NCBI GenBank assembly: GCA_036924855.1
Contig: JBAGRP010000001.1
Coordinates: forward strand, 5,692,001-5,756,000
DNA from: Nitrobacteraceae bacterium AZCC 2146
GTDB taxonomy: Bacteria > Pseudomonadota > Alphaproteobacteria > Rhizobiales > Xanthobacteraceae
Direction of reading: 5' to 3'
DNA: 64,000 bases
Shown: positions 28,302 to 41,535 of the stretch, piece by piece
Numbering within the stretch: the first letter of the stretch is position 1
Layout of the letters: each line of letters opens with the position of its first letter
Translations under genes and position numbers: made by a program
The notes under the pieces: model-generated
Databases searched by the model: none
Told to the model about the DNA's origin: nothing
The model's input: the letters and a program-made list of their open reading frames with translations, nothing else

Positions 28302-29201
28302 ATGACTGACATGAACATCATCGCCACATCGACCGGCCTCGCCGAACAGCACCGCGCGCAGGCAAAAGTCTGGTTTGAATCGCTGCGCGATCGCATCTGC
28401 GCTGAAGTCGAAGCGCTGGAGCGCGAGGCGCCCGCCGATCTTTTCCCCGGGGAACCAACCACTTTCACCTTCAAACCCTGGACCCGCGCCACCGGTAGCG
28501 GTGGCGGCACCGGCGGTTTCCTCAGTGGCGGCCGGCTGTTCGAAAAGATCGGAATCCATACGTCGTCGGCGAACGGAAAATTGTCGTCGGAAATGGCGAA
28601 GACGCTGCCGGGCGATGGCGTGCAGCTGGACTACGTTTCCACCAGCATCAGCCTGATCATGCATCCGCGCAGCCCGCGGGTGCCGACGGTGCATATGAAC
28701 ACCCGTTTTCTCTCGACAGCGCAGGGGTGGTTCGGCGGCGGCGCGGACCTGACGCCGATGCTGCCGGAGCAGCGCAGGGCAGATGCGCCGGATACGCTGA
28801 CCTTCCACGCCGCGATGCGCCGTGCCTGCGACGCCCACGATCCCGCTTACTACGAAAAATTCAAGGCCTGGGCCGACACCTATTTCTTCCTGCCGCATCG
28901 CGGCCAGGCCCGTGGCGTTGGCGGCATTTTTTACGATCATCTGAACAGCGGCGATTTCGACAAGGATTTCGCCTTTACCCGCGATGTCGGCTCCGCCTTT
29001 CTCGAGGTCTATCCGAAGATCGTCCGCGCGCGCATGCTGGAGCCTTGGACCGAAGCCGAACGCGCGCAACAACTCGCCTGCCGCGGACTTTATGTCGAAT
29101 TCAATCTGCTCTACGACAAAGGCACCATGTTCGGCCTGCAGACCGGCGGTAACATCGAAACCATTTTGAGCTCGATGCCGCCATTGGTGAGCTGGAGCTG
29201 A
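28302..29201 (+). CDS. hemF: Oxygen-dependent coproporphyrinogen III oxidase
   Basis: 299 residues. Oxidatively decarboxylates coproporphyrinogen III to protoporphyrinogen IX using O2. Motifs: GSGGGTGGFLSGG, SLIMHPRSPRVPTVHMNTR (substrate-binding His), WFGGGADLTP, LPHRGQARGVGGIFYDHL and the final GLQTGGNIETILSSMPPLVSW. The C-terminus stops soon after MPPL, which matches what I recall for rhizobial HemF, so the nearby insertion element has not truncated it. ATG 28302 preferred; ATG 28311 is a possible alternative. The FNR-type box upstream suggests oxygen-linked control. Confidence 0.94.
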   Translation: MTDMNIIATSTGLAEQHRAQAKVWFESLRDRICAEVEALEREAPADLFPGEPTTFTFKPWTRATGSGGGTGGFLSGGRLFEKIGIHTSSANGKLSSEMAKTLPGDGVQLDYVSTSISLIMHPRSPRVPTVHMNTRFLSTAQGWFGGGADLTPMLPEQRRADAPDTLTFHAAMRRACDAHDPAYYEKFKAWADTYFFLPHRGQARGVGGIFYDHLNSGDFDKDFAFTRDVGSAFLEVYPKIVRARMLEPWTEAERAQQLACRGLYVEFNLLYDKGTMFGLQTGGNIETILSSMPPLVSWS

Positions 29202-29238
29202 CGGACGACAATTTCCCCGGTCCCGGTATTGACAAAAA

Positions 29239-29263
29239 TCGCACTTATATACTTGACAAAAGT
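29239..29263 (+). repeat. Left terminal inverted repeat
   Basis: Starts TCGCACTTATATACTTG and ends ACAAAAGT; all 25 bases are the reverse complement of 32078-32102. Confidence 0.85.
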
Positions 29264-29302
29264 AAGATGAGCTTCTAAAACGTGGTCATTGGAGCAAAAG
29301 CC

Positions 29303-30238
29303 ATGACCGCCGTTTTCCAAGACCCCATGTTTCAGGACGAAGATAAGGCCCGCGAAGCCCTTGAGGCTGTTCGCTGGCCCGATGGCGCGATCTGCCCTCA
29401 TTGCGGCTCCAGCGACCCCGACAAGCTCGCCAAGATCGGCGGCACCAAGAAATCCCATCGTCCCGGCCTGTACTATTGCAACGACTGCAAAGGCCAGTTC
29501 ACCGTGACCGTTGGTACTGTGTTCGAACGCTCCAAGGTGCCTTTGACCAAGTGGTGGATGGCTGCGCACATGATGAACTCAGGCAAGAACGGCGTTTCTG
29601 CCCATGAGATCCATCGTGCCCTTGGCGTCACCTACAAGACCGCGTGGTTCATGATGCACCGCTTGCGCGAAGCTATGATCGTCTCCAATCCCGGCCCCAT
29701 GGGCGAGAATGGCGGCAACGTGCAAGCCGACGAAACCTATCACCTCAATACGTCCAAGCGCGCCAAGGGCTACAAGAAGGGCCATTCGAACAAGGCCAGT
29801 ATAGTTGCCCTCATTGACGAGAACACCGGCACTGTCCGCACCTTTCACGTCAAGAAGGGCGCAACCGCCGATAAGGTACGCGATATCCTTTTCACCAACG
29901 TGAAGCGCAAGGCCACCCTCGTTACCGACGAGAGCGCGCTTTACACCTATACCGGCAAGGCGTTTGGCGACCACCAGACGATGAACCACACAGGCCGCGA
30001 GTACGTGAACAAGGAAGGCTTCACGACCAACAACGTCGAGAACTTCTTTGGCGTATTCAAGCGCGGTATGCGCGGCACCTATACGTTCTGCGGTGAACAG
30101 CACCTTCACCGCTACCTGACGGAATTCGAATTCCGCTATAACAATCGCTCCGGACTTGGGTTCACCGATGGGGAACGGACGGCGAAGGCTCTCAAGGGTA
30201 TCGAGGGCAAGCGCCTGACGTACCGGCCGACTAACTAA
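29303..30238 (+). CDS. ISXO2-like transposase (IS1595 family)
   Basis: 311 residues. An N-terminal zinc ribbon uses Cys31, Cys34, Cys59 and Cys62 (CPHC and CNDC). A helix-turn-helix-like part follows (VSAHEIHRALGVTYKTAWFMMHRLREA). The DDE catalytic residues are in QADETYH (Asp143), VTDESALY (Asp209) and TNNVENFFGVFKRG (Glu246). GGAG lies seven bases before ATG 29303; a GTG at 29282 is also in frame. The enzyme appears full length and intact, so the element may still move. Confidence 0.92.
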   Translation: MTAVFQDPMFQDEDKAREALEAVRWPDGAICPHCGSSDPDKLAKIGGTKKSHRPGLYYCNDCKGQFTVTVGTVFERSKVPLTKWWMAAHMMNSGKNGVSAHEIHRALGVTYKTAWFMMHRLREAMIVSNPGPMGENGGNVQADETYHLNTSKRAKGYKKGHSNKASIVALIDENTGTVRTFHVKKGATADKVRDILFTNVKRKATLVTDESALYTYTGKAFGDHQTMNHTGREYVNKEGFTTNNVENFFGVFKRGMRGTYTFCGEQHLHRYLTEFEFRYNNRSGLGFTDGERTAKALKGIEGKRLTYRPTN

Positions 30239-30391
30239 AATCACCCATAAGAAACAGGCCGCTAAGCGATTCCGGGCTTGGCACAAAACGAAAGGTTAAC
30301 ATCCGGTAATACAAATAATTTGGAATACCGGTTGAACAAACCCGTAAAATACGTATTATCCGTAAATGCCATTCGCTAGGAGGCATTGTAA

Positions 30392-30655
30392 ATGCGCGTA
30401 ACTGCAACCGAATTTGCCAAAAATTTTGGGCGTTACCAAGATGAGGCTCGCGAAGAGCCTATTGAAGTCACGACTCATGACCGCACCACCGGCTATTTTG
30501 TTTCTCCTCGCGCGTATGAAGAGTTCCAAGAGCTACGTGCAAAATCTCGCCAAAATCTACAGGTCGGTGCGCTGAGCCCTGAGACCGTAGAACTGATCCG
30601 TTCTAGTAAGATGTCTGATCGTCATGATGCGCTCAACGCGCTTCTTGACAACTAG
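30392..30655 (+). CDS. Antitoxin, Phd/YefM-like
   Basis: 87 residues. RVTATEFAKNFGRYQDEA is the Phd/YefM DNA-binding N-terminus, followed by EPIEVTTHDRTTGYFVSPRAYEEF. The C-terminal 35 residues would wrap the toxin. AGGAGG lies eight bases before the ATG. A small palindrome AATACGTATT at 30348-30357 could be its operator. Ten bases separate it from the toxin gene. Passenger of the transposable element; stabilisation of the element is the likely benefit. Confidence 0.82.
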   Translation: MRVTATEFAKNFGRYQDEAREEPIEVTTHDRTTGYFVSPRAYEEFQELRAKSRQNLQVGALSPETVELIRSSKMSDRHDALNALLDN

Positions 30656-30665
30656 ACAACACTGA

Positions 30666-31103
30666 ATGCCCCTTCCTACTCCAGAAGCGGGCTTGGTAAT
30701 TCGCTACGAGTTTTTGTGGCACAACGAACATGAAGCGGGCGAAGAAGACGGCAAAAAGAAGCGCCCTTGCGCTATCATTGTCGCCTCGAAAATTGATCAA
30801 GGCCGAACGTCTGTAATCGTAGCTCCCATTACTCATACCAAGCCGGATGATGGACGAGGCGTCGAATTGCCGATGCGCGTTCGCCAAAGCCTTGGCCTCG
30901 ATGATCTGCCATCGTGGGTGATTATTGATGAGCTAAATCAGTTCATGTGGCCCGGTTACCACATCCATCCAATCGATAATTCTCTACCGGCAAAGTTTGA
31001 GTTTGGATTTTTGCCTCCGAAATTATTCGAAGAAGTTCGCGACAAGATCGCAAACTTGGACAAAGAAAAGAAAAAGACCGTCAATCGGGACGAAGTAGCT
31101 TAG
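30666..31103 (+). CDS. Putative toxin, PemK/MazF-like
   Basis: 145 residues. GLVIRYEFLWHNEHEAGEE at the start, KRPCAIIVASKI, VIVAPITHTKP and SWVIIDELNQFMWPG follow the barrel pattern of PemK/MazF-like endoribonucleases (R/KPR-hydrophobic strand, then P-I-T-H). The C-terminal half is longer than in classic MazF. Its place directly after a Phd/YefM-type antitoxin supports a toxin role. The 3' end overlaps the minus-strand small ORF by 23 bases. Confidence 0.7.
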   Translation: MPLPTPEAGLVIRYEFLWHNEHEAGEEDGKKKRPCAIIVASKIDQGRTSVIVAPITHTKPDDGRGVELPMRVRQSLGLDDLPSWVIIDELNQFMWPGYHIHPIDNSLPAKFEFGFLPPKLFEEVRDKIANLDKEKKKTVNRDEVA

Positions 31104-31239
31104 TACGCTTTGGCGCCTTCGCCTTCTTCGCTGGTTTTTCCTTCTTCCCGACCTTCATAGCCTCGTGCGGCTTTGGCTTCATGCGCACGAGAGCGCCCAT
31201 CAATTTTCTAGTGCCAACGAGATTGGATTCTTTAGCCAT
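31081..31239 (-). CDS. Small Lys/Pro-rich protein, unknown
   Basis: 52 residues starting MAKESNLVGTRKLMGALVRM, then a Pro-His-Glu-Met segment and a Lys/Ala-rich basic tail. AAGGGA lies upstream of ATG 31239. I recall similar small rhizobial ORFs near insertion elements but cannot verify that here. The basic tail could bind nucleic acid. Its ATG overlaps the ATG of the divergent gene on the plus strand by two bases. Confidence 0.5.
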   Translation of the reverse strand: MAKESNLVGTRKLMGALVRMKPKPHEAMKVGKKEKPAKKAKAPKRTKLLRPD

Positions 31240-32038
31240 GATAGATCCCTTTAATGGACCCAAATTAGTGCTTAACGAAGGGGCGAAAAAACACATCGAT
31301 GAGTTTAACACCAGTGAGGCCGAGTTCTTCAACGCAAAGCCATATACTTCGGTCGCCGAGATAGATGGCAAAACGGGGGACCTGGTCCACAAGGTCAAAC
31401 TCACGACCATGCCCTCGGATCGACTTCGCTATATCACCTACTCGGCTTTTAACGACCTCAAAAACGCCCTTGATCAAGCCGTCTGTGCCGCCTGCCTCGT
31501 ATTGGATGGGCCAAAGGTCATCAAGAATGCCTATTTCCCCTTCGCCGAAAATCCTAACGATTTGGCTGGGATGCTTAAAAGCGACAGGTACAGCGACATC
31601 CCAGCCTCGCTCCACCCCTTCTTGAATGGATTGGAGCCTTACCCGACTAGTGACAGTTACGGCGGGGGAGACGACATTCTCCGAAGCTTCGGCAAAGTCG
31701 CCAACCCGAACAAACACCAAATCCCTTTGTCTATCGGGATTCAACAACTCAGCGGAGCCTACTCCGTCAAATCCCTTCAGCTGACCCACGTCACGCACTT
31801 CCAAGACCCCTTCTGGGACAGCGCGAAAAATGAGATTGTAATCGCCCGCACAAAGCCCACCGGAACATGCCAATACGATCTCGCCATGCCCTTCTACATA
31901 AGCCTCGCTGAAGCTGGTCCTTTGACTAGCCAACCAGTCTCGGGAGTTTTGGGCCAAATGGCGAGCAAAGTAGACCGCATCATCGGCGGTTTTGAAGCGG
32001 AGACCACTCGCATCCTGCGCGAACGCGGAGCCTCCTGA
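31238..32038 (+). CDS. Transposon passenger protein of unknown function
   Basis: 266 residues from ATG 31238. No signal peptide or membrane segment. The sequence contains LRYITYSAFNDLKNALDQAV, then YFPFAENPNDL, HPFLNGLEPYP and ILRSFGKVANPNKHQIPLS. The N-x-N-K-H pattern recurs in several uncharacterised bacterial families with a helical core, but I cannot name one. An in-frame ATG at 31181 would extend it back into the antisense small gene. Part of the IS1595-type element, just inside its right end. Confidence 0.6.
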   Translation: MIDPFNGPKLVLNEGAKKHIDEFNTSEAEFFNAKPYTSVAEIDGKTGDLVHKVKLTTMPSDRLRYITYSAFNDLKNALDQAVCAACLVLDGPKVIKNAYFPFAENPNDLAGMLKSDRYSDIPASLHPFLNGLEPYPTSDSYGGGDDILRSFGKVANPNKHQIPLSIGIQQLSGAYSVKSLQLTHVTHFQDPFWDSAKNEIVIARTKPTGTCQYDLAMPFYISLAEAGPLTSQPVSGVLGQMASKVDRIIGGFEAETTRILRERGAS

Positions 32039-32077
32039 AGCGCTGCCCTGTCGCCCGACAGTCATAGGACTAAACTC

Positions 32078-32102
32078 ACTTTTGTCAAGTATATAAGTGC
32101 GA
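32078..32102 (-). repeat. Right terminal inverted repeat
   Basis: ACTTTTGTCAAGTATATAAG then TGCGA, the perfect reverse complement of the left repeat at 29239-29263. Confidence 0.85.
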
Positions 32103-32229
32103 CAAAAATCCTAGTATGATTATAGTCCCTTCGTCCTGTCCGTGAGGGGCGCTTCTAGAGGCGATCCTGAAGTGGGACAGAGTGTCGGGGCGGGGTAACC
32201 CAATCCGGCCGGAGTGCGGCGCCTGCGGT

Positions 32230-32491
32230 CGTGCCTCGCAAGCACGGACTCGGGAGGCCTTGGGTAGCCGTCCGACCCCACTACGGGGGTCTGCTCTTCG
32301 TGAGCTGGACGGGTGCGGGTGAAGGCGGGCGAAAGCCGGCTGGATAGATGCCCAGTACCCGGAAGCACGGCCCCGAAGCCCAAAATCGCCGCTGGCGGCG
32401 CGCCGCAAGGCGTTGCGCGGTCTGCAAAGACCGCGACGAATACCACCACCCGCGCCGACCGGCGCGCTGCCACCCCTCACATTTTGAGGGG
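32230..32491. other. Dense hairpin array, candidate structured RNA or repeat
   Basis: The 465-bp gap between the transposable element and cbbR has no convincing gene. It holds at least six perfect hairpins: CGTGC/GCACG (32230-32246), GACCCC/GGGGTC (32274-32291), CGCCG-CTGG-CGGCG (32387-32400), CGCC-GCAA-GGCG (32401-32412), CGCGGTCT-GCAA-AGACCGCG (32416-32435), CGCGCC-GACC-GGCGCG (32451-32466) and CCCCTCA/TGAGGGG (32473-32491). GGC-GAAA-GCC is at 32328-32337. Three loops are GNRA tetraloops, which point to folding as RNA. Short open frames on both strands look spurious. Strand undetermined. Confidence 0.45.
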
Positions 32492-32575
32492 AAGTGCTCA
32501 CACCTCGGACGCATCACGCGCCGCGAGAATGCGAGAGCTTGGCTGTTTGAAATTCAAAGCGCGCGACGCCGCCGG

Positions 32576-33535
32576 TCAATCCCGCTTGGAGGGGCGCGTC
32601 AATCGGAGGCGTCCCTGCATGCGCGGCAGGAACTGCGCGCCCTGCGCGCCCAGGAACTGCCGCATCGCCTGCGCGGGCGGCAGCAGCACCTTGTCCTTCC
32701 TGTTGACGACAAACCATTGCCGGACGATCGGCAGGCCCACGACATCCAGCATCGTCAGCCGGCGCTCGTCGAGTTCGGTTGCCACCGTGTGCGCGGAAAT
32801 AAATGCGATGCCGAGGCCGGCGATGACGGCCTGCTTGATGGTTTCGTTGCTGCTCATCTCCATGCCGATCACCGGCCGAACGCCTGCGGTTTCGAACAGC
32901 TGTTCCATCAGGCCGCGTGTTCCCGAACCGGGCTCGCGCGTCAAGAATGTTTCCCCCGCGAGATCGGTCAGGGCCAGCCCCGGCTTTCGCGCCAGACGAT
33001 GCCCGGTCGGCGCGATGATGACATGGGGGTGATCGCCGATCAGATGCACATCCATCTCGATATCCACCGGCGGCCGGCCCATGATCGCGATATCGAGATC
33101 GTAGCCGCGCAGTGCCGCGCCGATTTCCTGGCGGTTGCCGATCGTCAACTTGATCTCGATCTCCGGGTGCAATCTGGAAAATCCCGAGATCGCGAACGGG
33201 ACGAAGTATTTTGCGGTGCTGACGGCACCGATCGAAATCCGCCCCCCGGTTTTCCCCGCCATCATCTCCAGCGATGTCGCGCACGCCGCCAGTGCCGCCT
33301 CGATCCGCTCCGACAGCGCCAGCACCTCGCGGCCCGCATCGGTCAGCAGCATGCCGTCGCCGGTGCGCTGGATCAGCGGTAATCCGGCGAGCGCTTGCAG
33401 GTTGCGCAGCTGCAGGGTGACCGCTGGCTGGGTGAGGTGCAGCTTCGCCGCCGCCGCCGTGATGCTGCCATTGGCGGAGAGGGCTGCGAGCGCCCGCAGC
33501 TGCCGGATCGAGACGTCGCGAAACCGCTTCGACAT
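32576..33535 (-). CDS. cbbR: LysR-type regulator of the Calvin cycle operon (CbbR)
   Basis: 319 residues. The N-terminal helix-turn-helix ([40 protein letters not shown]) and effector domain ([42 protein letters not shown]) match CbbR. It lies divergent from cbbF with a 156-bp intergenic region. CbbR activates cbb transcription in response to metabolites such as RuBP or NADPH; the effector here is unknown. Confidence 0.93.
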
Positions 33536-41245: not shown

Positions 41246-41344
41246 GCCTGCGCCGCACAGCGATGAATCAATATGCAGGGCGCTTATATTCGCGTCTTGC
41301 CTATATCGGGGCATGCATTAAATACAGCGGTGTCCGATCAGACG

Positions 41345-41535
41345 ATGTGGGAGAGATCGGCACGGGCTTAGGCCTTGTGCCGGCGCCGAAGGAGCAACCC
41401 CCCGGGAAACTCTCAGGCACCAGGGACTGCATCGTTGGACAATCTGGAGAGAGACGCTTCGAGCGTCCACCGAAGGGGAAATCTGGCGCTTTAAGCGTTG
41501 GATCACGCTCTCAGGTACCGTGACAGATGGGGATA
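41345..41535 (+). promoter_or_regulatory. Tandem glycine riboswitch (gcvT motif)
   Basis: Aptamer 1 runs from GTGGGAGAGATCGG through CGCCGAAGGAGCAACC, GGGAAACTCTCAGGCACC and a short linker TTGGACAATC. Aptamer 2 starts CTGGAGAGAGACGC, includes CCACCGAAGGGGAAATC and closes ATCACGCTCTCAGGTACCG then TGACAGATGGGG. The repeated GGAGAG...CCGAAGG...CTCTCAGG pattern and linker are diagnostic of the cooperative glycine riboswitch. The downstream GTG start is about 57 bases past aptamer 2; no clear terminator is visible, so the expression platform is not defined. Confidence 0.9.

Follow-up and report, generated by a model that had tools for sequence, protein, structure and literature searches.

A toxin-antitoxin pair as one of several exchanged cargos in a probable two-slot IS1595-family element of a Nitrobacteraceae bacterium

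What is a toxin-antitoxin (TA) pair doing inside a simple transposon? The question is raised by an element in a 64,000-nucleotide stretch of the genome of Nitrobacteraceae bacterium AZCC 2146 (contig JBAGRP010000001.1, positions 5,692,001 to 5,756,000), referred to here as the window. One pair of inverted ends encloses an IS1595-family transposase, a Phd/YefM-PemK pair, a small basic gene of 52 codons (P52), and a gene for a 266-residue protein (P266). A first-pass annotation had suggested that the pair addicts the host to the element and that the other two genes may be part of the same module. We consider it highly probable that the unit is a transporter insertion sequence (tIS) with two cargo slots and that the TA pair is one interchangeable cargo, with a likely role in keeping the element from loss. 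In this reading, the two slots lie between the transposase and the right end, divided by P52; slot 1 holds the TA pair with its own promoter-like region, and slot 2 holds P266.

Within the region inspected for open reading frames (ORFs) and repeats (28500-32800), the element spans 29240-32101, or 2862 bp in a symmetric parse, in agreement with the earlier estimate of about 2.86 kb. The segment TCGCACTTATATACTTGACAAAAGT (29239-29263) is the exact complement of 32078-32102 at 25/25 positions. The inverted ends of the element itself are 24 bp long and perfect, with outer bases CGCAC ... GTGCG; their perfection had been noted correctly, and the length of 25 bp first given to them included one base common by chance. 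Similarly, the 10-bp direct repeat first reported, GACAAAAATC, is real, but its length resolves into an 8-bp target-site duplication (TSD), ACAAAAAT, plus the element's first or last base; 10 bp were seen because the terminal bases of the element equal the flanking bases. Terminal inverted repeats (TIRs) and a short TSD, of 8 bp, are typical of the IS1595 family, and both are found here. The transposase, too, belongs to this family. It matches NF033547 (E 2.8e-54, 184.3 bits, cut-off 75), PF12762 (E 1.2e-26, 94 bits, cut-off 27), and PF12760 (E 9.6e-12, 45.1 bits, cut-off 25.4), as an IS1595-type DDE transposase with an N-terminal zinc ribbon, and its frame is open, as the claim of an intact transposase had implied. 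ATG 29303 is the likely start, since the alignment with most close relatives begins at about residue 7. The host genome (7.64 Mb, one contig) holds a single copy of the element and four weaker transposase matches elsewhere; across the family, 85 of 391 genomes have a relative of the transposase at E <= 1e-60. In one of these matches (G081:C1:801584-802498), the transposase lies within an unusually long open frame of 1986 aa.

The relatives of the element carry the argument for exchange. Our survey took 40 regions mostly from the top of the transposase list and 10 with P266 relatives, making 51 with the window. Elements were delimited automatically by an exact 8-bp TSD and a net end score of at least 11, a criterion that gave 0/205 matches in scrambled loci. 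By this measure, 37 of the 51 regions gave 39 elements (two regions hold two) and 14 gave none. These elements range from 1.6 to 4.6 kb in length, and all of them contain DNA beyond the transposase. The closest relative, L056, comes from the same genus and has a transposase 95% identical to that of the window element, with a different slot-1 gene; the co-linear blocks of the two are the left 1043 bp (end and transposase), a 60-bp island in P52, and the right 64 bp. The pairs L086a-L088 and L081-L082 likewise have the left part, the island, and the right end in common, and the L075a-L077 pair, without P52, only the two end parts. In general, what elements have in common internally (E <= 1e-6) is for the most part the P52 island; the clearest exceptions are a 509-bp stretch (64%) in the slot-1 gene of L059 and L086a and one of 141 bp (74%) in L062 and L075a. 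Counting five cargo families only, a family was shared by 7/65 pairs with transposases at least 70% identical, 20/346 pairs at 55-70%, and 21/330 pairs below 55%. Slot-1 genes also recur with differing slot-2 genes, one family in L056, L059, and L086a and a Clp-protease-like gene in L071 and L082. Because the cargo in both slots changes much faster than the transposase and P52, the TA pair is best seen as one captured cargo among many. Judging from this exchange, the passenger genes would be dispensable for transposition.

Some of the other cargo can be recognized in a family scan that covered 120 ORFs, ORFs of <90 aa not being scanned in bulk. HigB with a helix-turn-helix gene is found in L078, AAA_15 with DUF3226 in L061, and a HATPase, a C5 DNA methylase, and a Vsr-type endonuclease match, assigned by sequence, in the 4.6-kb element L093. 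L068 carries DUF4145, which we count as toxin or defence type on a presumed association, and L081 carries a HEPN gene just under its cut-off (21.9 versus 22 bits). PIN-domain genes are present in IS1595 elements of a Methylobacterium oryzae plasmid and a Roseomonas marmotae plasmid, both elements having a TSD and imperfect ends. Two plasmid elements from different genera (L232, L233) both have the order hypothetical gene, PIN gene, small ORF. We also saw a small minus-strand ORF with an EITPEMIEAGL-like motif near the right end of six elements, forming one BLAST cluster (L056, at 2327-2512 in element coordinates, L060, L069, L082, L090, and L095).

The identity of the TA pair given in the first-pass annotation is borne out by Pfam, with 33.4 bits for the antitoxin against PF02604 (cut-off 29.8) and 28.5 bits for the toxin against PF02452 (cut-off 23.1). 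In NCBIfam, the antitoxin stays under the cut-off (TIGR01552, 16.5 versus 20.8) and the toxin has no match. The genes are adjacent, antitoxin first, as expected of a type II module, and this order is kept in 28 of 29 relative loci. PemK would by its family presumably be an RNase-type toxin. Relatives of it occur in 55 of 382 family genomes, own genome included, and in 434 of 72,556 plasmid records (E <= 1e-5; best identity, 59%); a peptide-pattern search of genome contigs gave no PemK relatives. The pair thus resembles stand-alone alphaproteobacterial Phd/YefM-PemK modules in gene order and families; unlike it, these modules have an IS1595 transposase within 1.5 kb at 0 of the 29 genome loci. 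Among the loci examined, no relative had all four genes together. Promoter-like sites numbered 4 in the scanned stretch, compared to 1.8 expected, and one of them, with two palindromes, is a candidate TA operator (Table 1). Taken by sequence, the pair is a common TA type that appears to have been captured by the element, and host addiction to the element through it is plausible.

P52, in contrast to the exchanged cargo, is nearly constant. Regardless of their cargo, 30 of 39 elements have it, always on the strand opposite to the transposase (29 at E < 0.02; the weakest, L074, at E 0.15). The profile used was built on 17 elements, so that these seeds match by construction; the families had first been seen by all-against-all BLAST. 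In its own frame, the ratio of nonsynonymous to synonymous differences (pN/pS) is 0.27 (23 codons, 10 elements); of the five other frames, four give 1.44-2.11 and one gives 0.49. The idea that the island is a DNA site was rejected, as substitutions are mostly synonymous in the P52 frame. When 15 P52 members were used as queries against genomes, 33 places were found, in 32 of 382 genomes; of 30 loci examined, 15 were the members themselves, and 8 of the 15 others lie within 1.5 kb of a transposase. Both matches to P52 in viral contigs sit inside elements with a transposase and end motifs. Identities of P52 and transposase are correlated among elements of the larger type (rho 0.43, 21 elements; 2/2000 permutations as high) and not significantly among those of the smaller type (rho 0.5, 8 elements; 205/2000 permutations). 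P52 is most likely part of the element core. The basic 52-residue ORF of the first-pass annotation is present, on the minus strand, but its occurrence with any cargo takes it out of a common module with the TA genes.

The same holds for P266. Two 266-aa ORFs on opposite strands overlap here, and relatives align with the plus-strand one. They occur in 9 of 391 genomes, the window's own counted, and at 10 other places, five of which have an IS1595 transposase. The other elements that hold a P266 relative lack Phd/PemK; in L017, a decayed copy, the neighbor is a DUF2158 gene. Because P52 recurs whatever the cargo and P266 recurs without Phd/PemK, we do not retain the proposal that the two genes are part of the TA module. 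For P266, Pfam and NCBIfam gave no family match, and the best match of a PDB profile search, at E 0.34, was not convincing; a single-sequence structure model had a mean predicted local distance difference test score (pLDDT) of 32.3 and was not used. Peptide patterns of P266 found no relatives in genome and viral contigs, nor did tblastn in plasmids, and the L023 slot-2 protein had no relatives in viral contigs.

An R-x4-6-H motif in an alpha-helical domain is typical of HEPN RNases, and there is a hint of it in some slot-2 proteins. Eight of these, from relatives of the element (alignment A4), have an invariant E, R, and H, the latter two as R-x4-H in 8/8. In the nine-sequence alignment of P266, some members have an HNLRSALDH-like stretch; at the aligned place the P266 of the window element reads NDLKNALDQ, without R or H, and lacks the motif. 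Single slot-2 proteins match DUF4145 (L068), HEPN under its cut-off (L081), and, weakly, HEPN_RiboL-PSP (L060, E 0.0084). For the eight A4 proteins, neither Pfam, PDB, nor profile comparison supported a HEPN identity; since the profile tools gave no confirmation, HEPN stays a motif-level hint.

Where P52 meets slot 2, the start codon of P52 overlaps that of the slot-2 ORF (>=120 aa) as CATG in 19 of 30 elements, although the slot-2 families differ; for the remaining CAT sites of the cargo parts, the background, the figure is 25/673. This count allows several ATGs per P52 gene, leaves out L060 (internal methionine), and includes L066, whose upstream start is also CATG. The scoring rule was set after an initial count of 13/28, which took internal methionines for several genes. 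The shared CATG may reflect either a precise cargo junction or selection to keep a common start.

Two further, weaker signals are common to many of the elements, each defined post hoc, the second on the same 39 elements. On the right, the motif GSCCTGTC stands on the plus strand 51-61 bp from the end in 22 of 39 elements. A second end-type group (L079, L084, L085, L086a, and L088) has GGGCGCGCC in its place, several members then continuing with hairpin-like sequences. On the other side of the cargo, a basic tail is encoded in the +1 frame immediately behind the transposase stop: the pattern F/LxxW[RKHT] occurs within 20 codons in this frame in 34 of 39 elements and in the +2 and zero frames in 0 (0.43 expected). 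Over 10 codons, pN/pS is 0.44 in the +1 frame, 1.07 and 1.24 in the other forward frames, and 1.23, 0.56, and 1.17 in reverse. In 22 of the 34, no ATG, GTG, or TTG precedes the tail in its frame after the last stop, and in none of the 39 is the tail in frame with the transposase. Among 22 further loci, five have the pattern (L064, L067, L073, L087, and viral L155); it is absent from L091, L092, L094, eight viral, and six plasmid loci, several with broken or distant transposases, and L094 and L237 have tail-like basic stretches despite missing the pattern. At the order level, a slightly wider pattern was found in the +1 frame at 9 of 29 loci and in other frames at 0, the window itself (L238) and the out-of-register L253 being left out. 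The conservation of the +1-frame tail suggests recoding. No slippery sequence was recognized. At L244 and L254, the zero frame behind the stop has a stretch resembling the tail, and this counts against a strict +1 mechanism.

One can imagine that these features together make a cargo-exchange platform, in which unrelated cargo would be joined precisely from the CATG of P52 up to the right motif and the transposase would carry a +1-recoded basic tail. We offer this as a tentative possibility. If true, the platform would resemble a cassette system but lack an integrase, and it would also be an IS that relies on +1 ribosomal frameshifting. A 2016 review states that no IS with +1 ribosomal frameshifting had been identified by then, while +1 transcriptional slippage was known (PMC5009743).

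The site of insertion also bears on the borders. The element sits between hemF (coproporphyrinogen oxidase, NF003727 above cut-off) and a LysR-type gene, for which the best NCBIfam match is CbbR (337 bits, under its cut-off of 450). The right flank from 32102 to about 32575, together with about 29226-29239, is a copy of a dispersed GC-rich repeat starting TTGACA, which has 32 matched stretches in the same genome, window's own counted, and to which 50 of 119 family genomes have matches; Rfam at the gathering threshold has no family for it. When the flanks were joined with a single ACAAAAAT, they aligned across the junction at 18 distinct places besides the window, 10 of them in the same genome (40 loci searched; 24 rows, less 2 self rows of the window and 4 second loci of a place). 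Left of the duplication, the match is limited to 1-5 bases at 15 of the 18 places and extends further at 3 (L119, L135, and L138); the left side is thin because the repeat begins near the insertion point. The orthologous locus in the closest genus member (G012, 95% identity) gave no exact empty site: it lacks the element and the flanking repeat, with about 0.5 kb of flank gone. The repeat copies fit as empty sites and support the borders, so that the empty-site check proposed in the first-pass annotation leaves them standing, and the element appears to have entered one copy of the repeat. Both inverted ends contain an inward-pointing TTGACA, and the left end may thereby supply the -35 box of the transposase; our promoter scan listed no promoter at the left inverted end. 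Elsewhere in the window, at 41338-41439 on the plus strand, there is a glycine riboswitch (RF00504, 61.6 bits).

Table 1. Features of the element and its target site in window coordinates
Feature	Position	Strand	Basis or remark
Left target-site duplication ACAAAAAT	29232..29239	.	paralogous empty sites
Left terminal inverted repeat, 24 bp perfect (26/27 if extended)	29240..29263	.	
IS1595-family transposase	29303..30238	+	longest ORF from GTG 29282
Basic tail KITHKKQAAKRFRAWHKTKG in +1 frame, then TAA, directly after transposase stop	30237..30299	+	predicted translation
Promoter-like TTGAAC-16-TATTAT (30332-30359) and palindromes (30300-30334, 30343-30362); candidate TA operator	30300..30362	+	consensus matches only
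Phd/YefM-type antitoxin, 87 aa, cargo slot 1	30392..30655	+	PF02604
PemK/MazF-type toxin, 145 aa, cargo slot 1	30666..31103	+	PF02452
P52, constant small basic gene, 52 aa, motif GALVRMKPKPHExMKVGKK	31081..31239	-	
CATG, overlapping divergent start codons of P52 and slot-2 gene	31237..31240	.	
P266, slot-2 cargo protein, 266 aa	31238..32038	+	
Right subterminal motif GCCCTGTC	32045..32052	+	GSCCTGTC in 22/39 elements
Right terminal inverted repeat	32078..32101	.	
Right target-site duplication ACAAAAAT	32102..32109	.	paralogous empty sites

Other explanations have to be set beside that of interchangeable cargo. The view of the first-pass annotation would make the TA pair, and with it both of the other genes, integral to the transposition module, as proposed for the Tn3 family. 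The pair is indeed the next gene after the transposase in the window element. In Tn3-family transposons, TA pairs lie right beside the resolution site and persist in related transposons that differ in their remaining passengers (PMC7157771). Here the TA pair is itself the varying part: the same pair is not kept while the other passengers change, L056 has a different gene in its place, and the 29 other PemK loci stand apart from any nearby IS1595 transposase. We consider this view very unlikely. It is also possible to see P52 and the slot-2 gene as a small conflict system, such as an RNase-type toxin with a basic regulator, in which slot 2 is what is selected and the TA pair is incidental. The divergent genes starting at the same CATG and the slot-2 proteins with R-x4-H or single HEPN-like matches would suit such a system, but a constant P52 beside differing slot-2 families is a poor fit to a partner-specific regulator, profiles do not support a HEPN identity of the eight, and the window protein lacks the motif residues. 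On balance, we find it improbable.

A third explanation would take the cargo for neutral DNA that hitch-hikes after a chance capture and decays without benefit to the element. Rapid turnover of the cargo, the decay of L017, and a base composition unlike that of the transposase are in its favor (GC content of 49.0% for the TA genes, 52.9% for P266, 57.6% for the transposase, and 62.1% for the window). Yet members of one cargo family turn up repeatedly in the same slot, and the start-codon junction is far above its background; we regard neutral capture as an unlikely account of the whole. The reading of a two-slot tIS with interchangeable cargo has points against it as well. P266 relatives lie outside detectable elements at 5 of 10 places, and a search for TIRs around these five genes without transposase found none. 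P52 is not detectable in 9 of 39 elements, and at 7 of the 15 P52 loci outside the member set, no transposase lies within 1.5 kb (L193 and L194 being near contig ends). Most cargo has no family match; recognizable toxin or defence types are found in 6 of 39 elements, window included, a count that contains the one under its cut-off (L081) and the one by presumed association (L068). The TA pair was found in the window element only (1/39), so that selection for addiction cannot be judged.

How might such an element work? We imagine that the transposase cuts at the 24-bp ends and would insert the element with the 8-bp duplication; some of the cargo exchanged is of toxin or defence type. Were the element in the window deleted, the labile antitoxin would vanish first and PemK might then halt growth. 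Integron cassette arrays likewise keep interchangeable cargo beside constant element genes; unlike integrons, the window element has no integrase gene, nor a resolvase gene, among its ORFs and family matches, and attC sites were not searched for.

That a tIS can carry passengers, IS1595 members included, is established (PMC5704250, PMC7986276, and PMC11891212). The window element, with passenger genes within one pair of ends, is like MTnSag1/tISSag10, tISCpe8, and ISNha5 in combining an IS1595 transposase, as the single transposase, with passengers. For two of these the passengers are named: tISCpe8 carries a lincomycin-resistance element, going by a reference title, and ISNha5 carries transcription regulators (PMC5704250, PMC11891212). 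The window element differs in carrying a type II TA pair and in having two exchanged slots with a constant small minus-strand gene between them. With Tn3-family TA transposons, it has in common that a type II TA pair sits within a transposon, where it has been proposed as a stabiliser (PMC7157771). We found no report of an IS1595 element with a TA pair in a literature search outside which most subscription papers fell.

Small elements with a single transposase are usually thought to carry little else. If this clade regularly swaps two cargo genes around a fixed small gene and now and then acquires genes of toxin or defence type, it would provide a simple chromosomal route for the spread of toxin- and defence-type genes. 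P52, the shared start codon, and the out-of-frame tail raise testable questions about how such elements may gain cargo and control their transposition.

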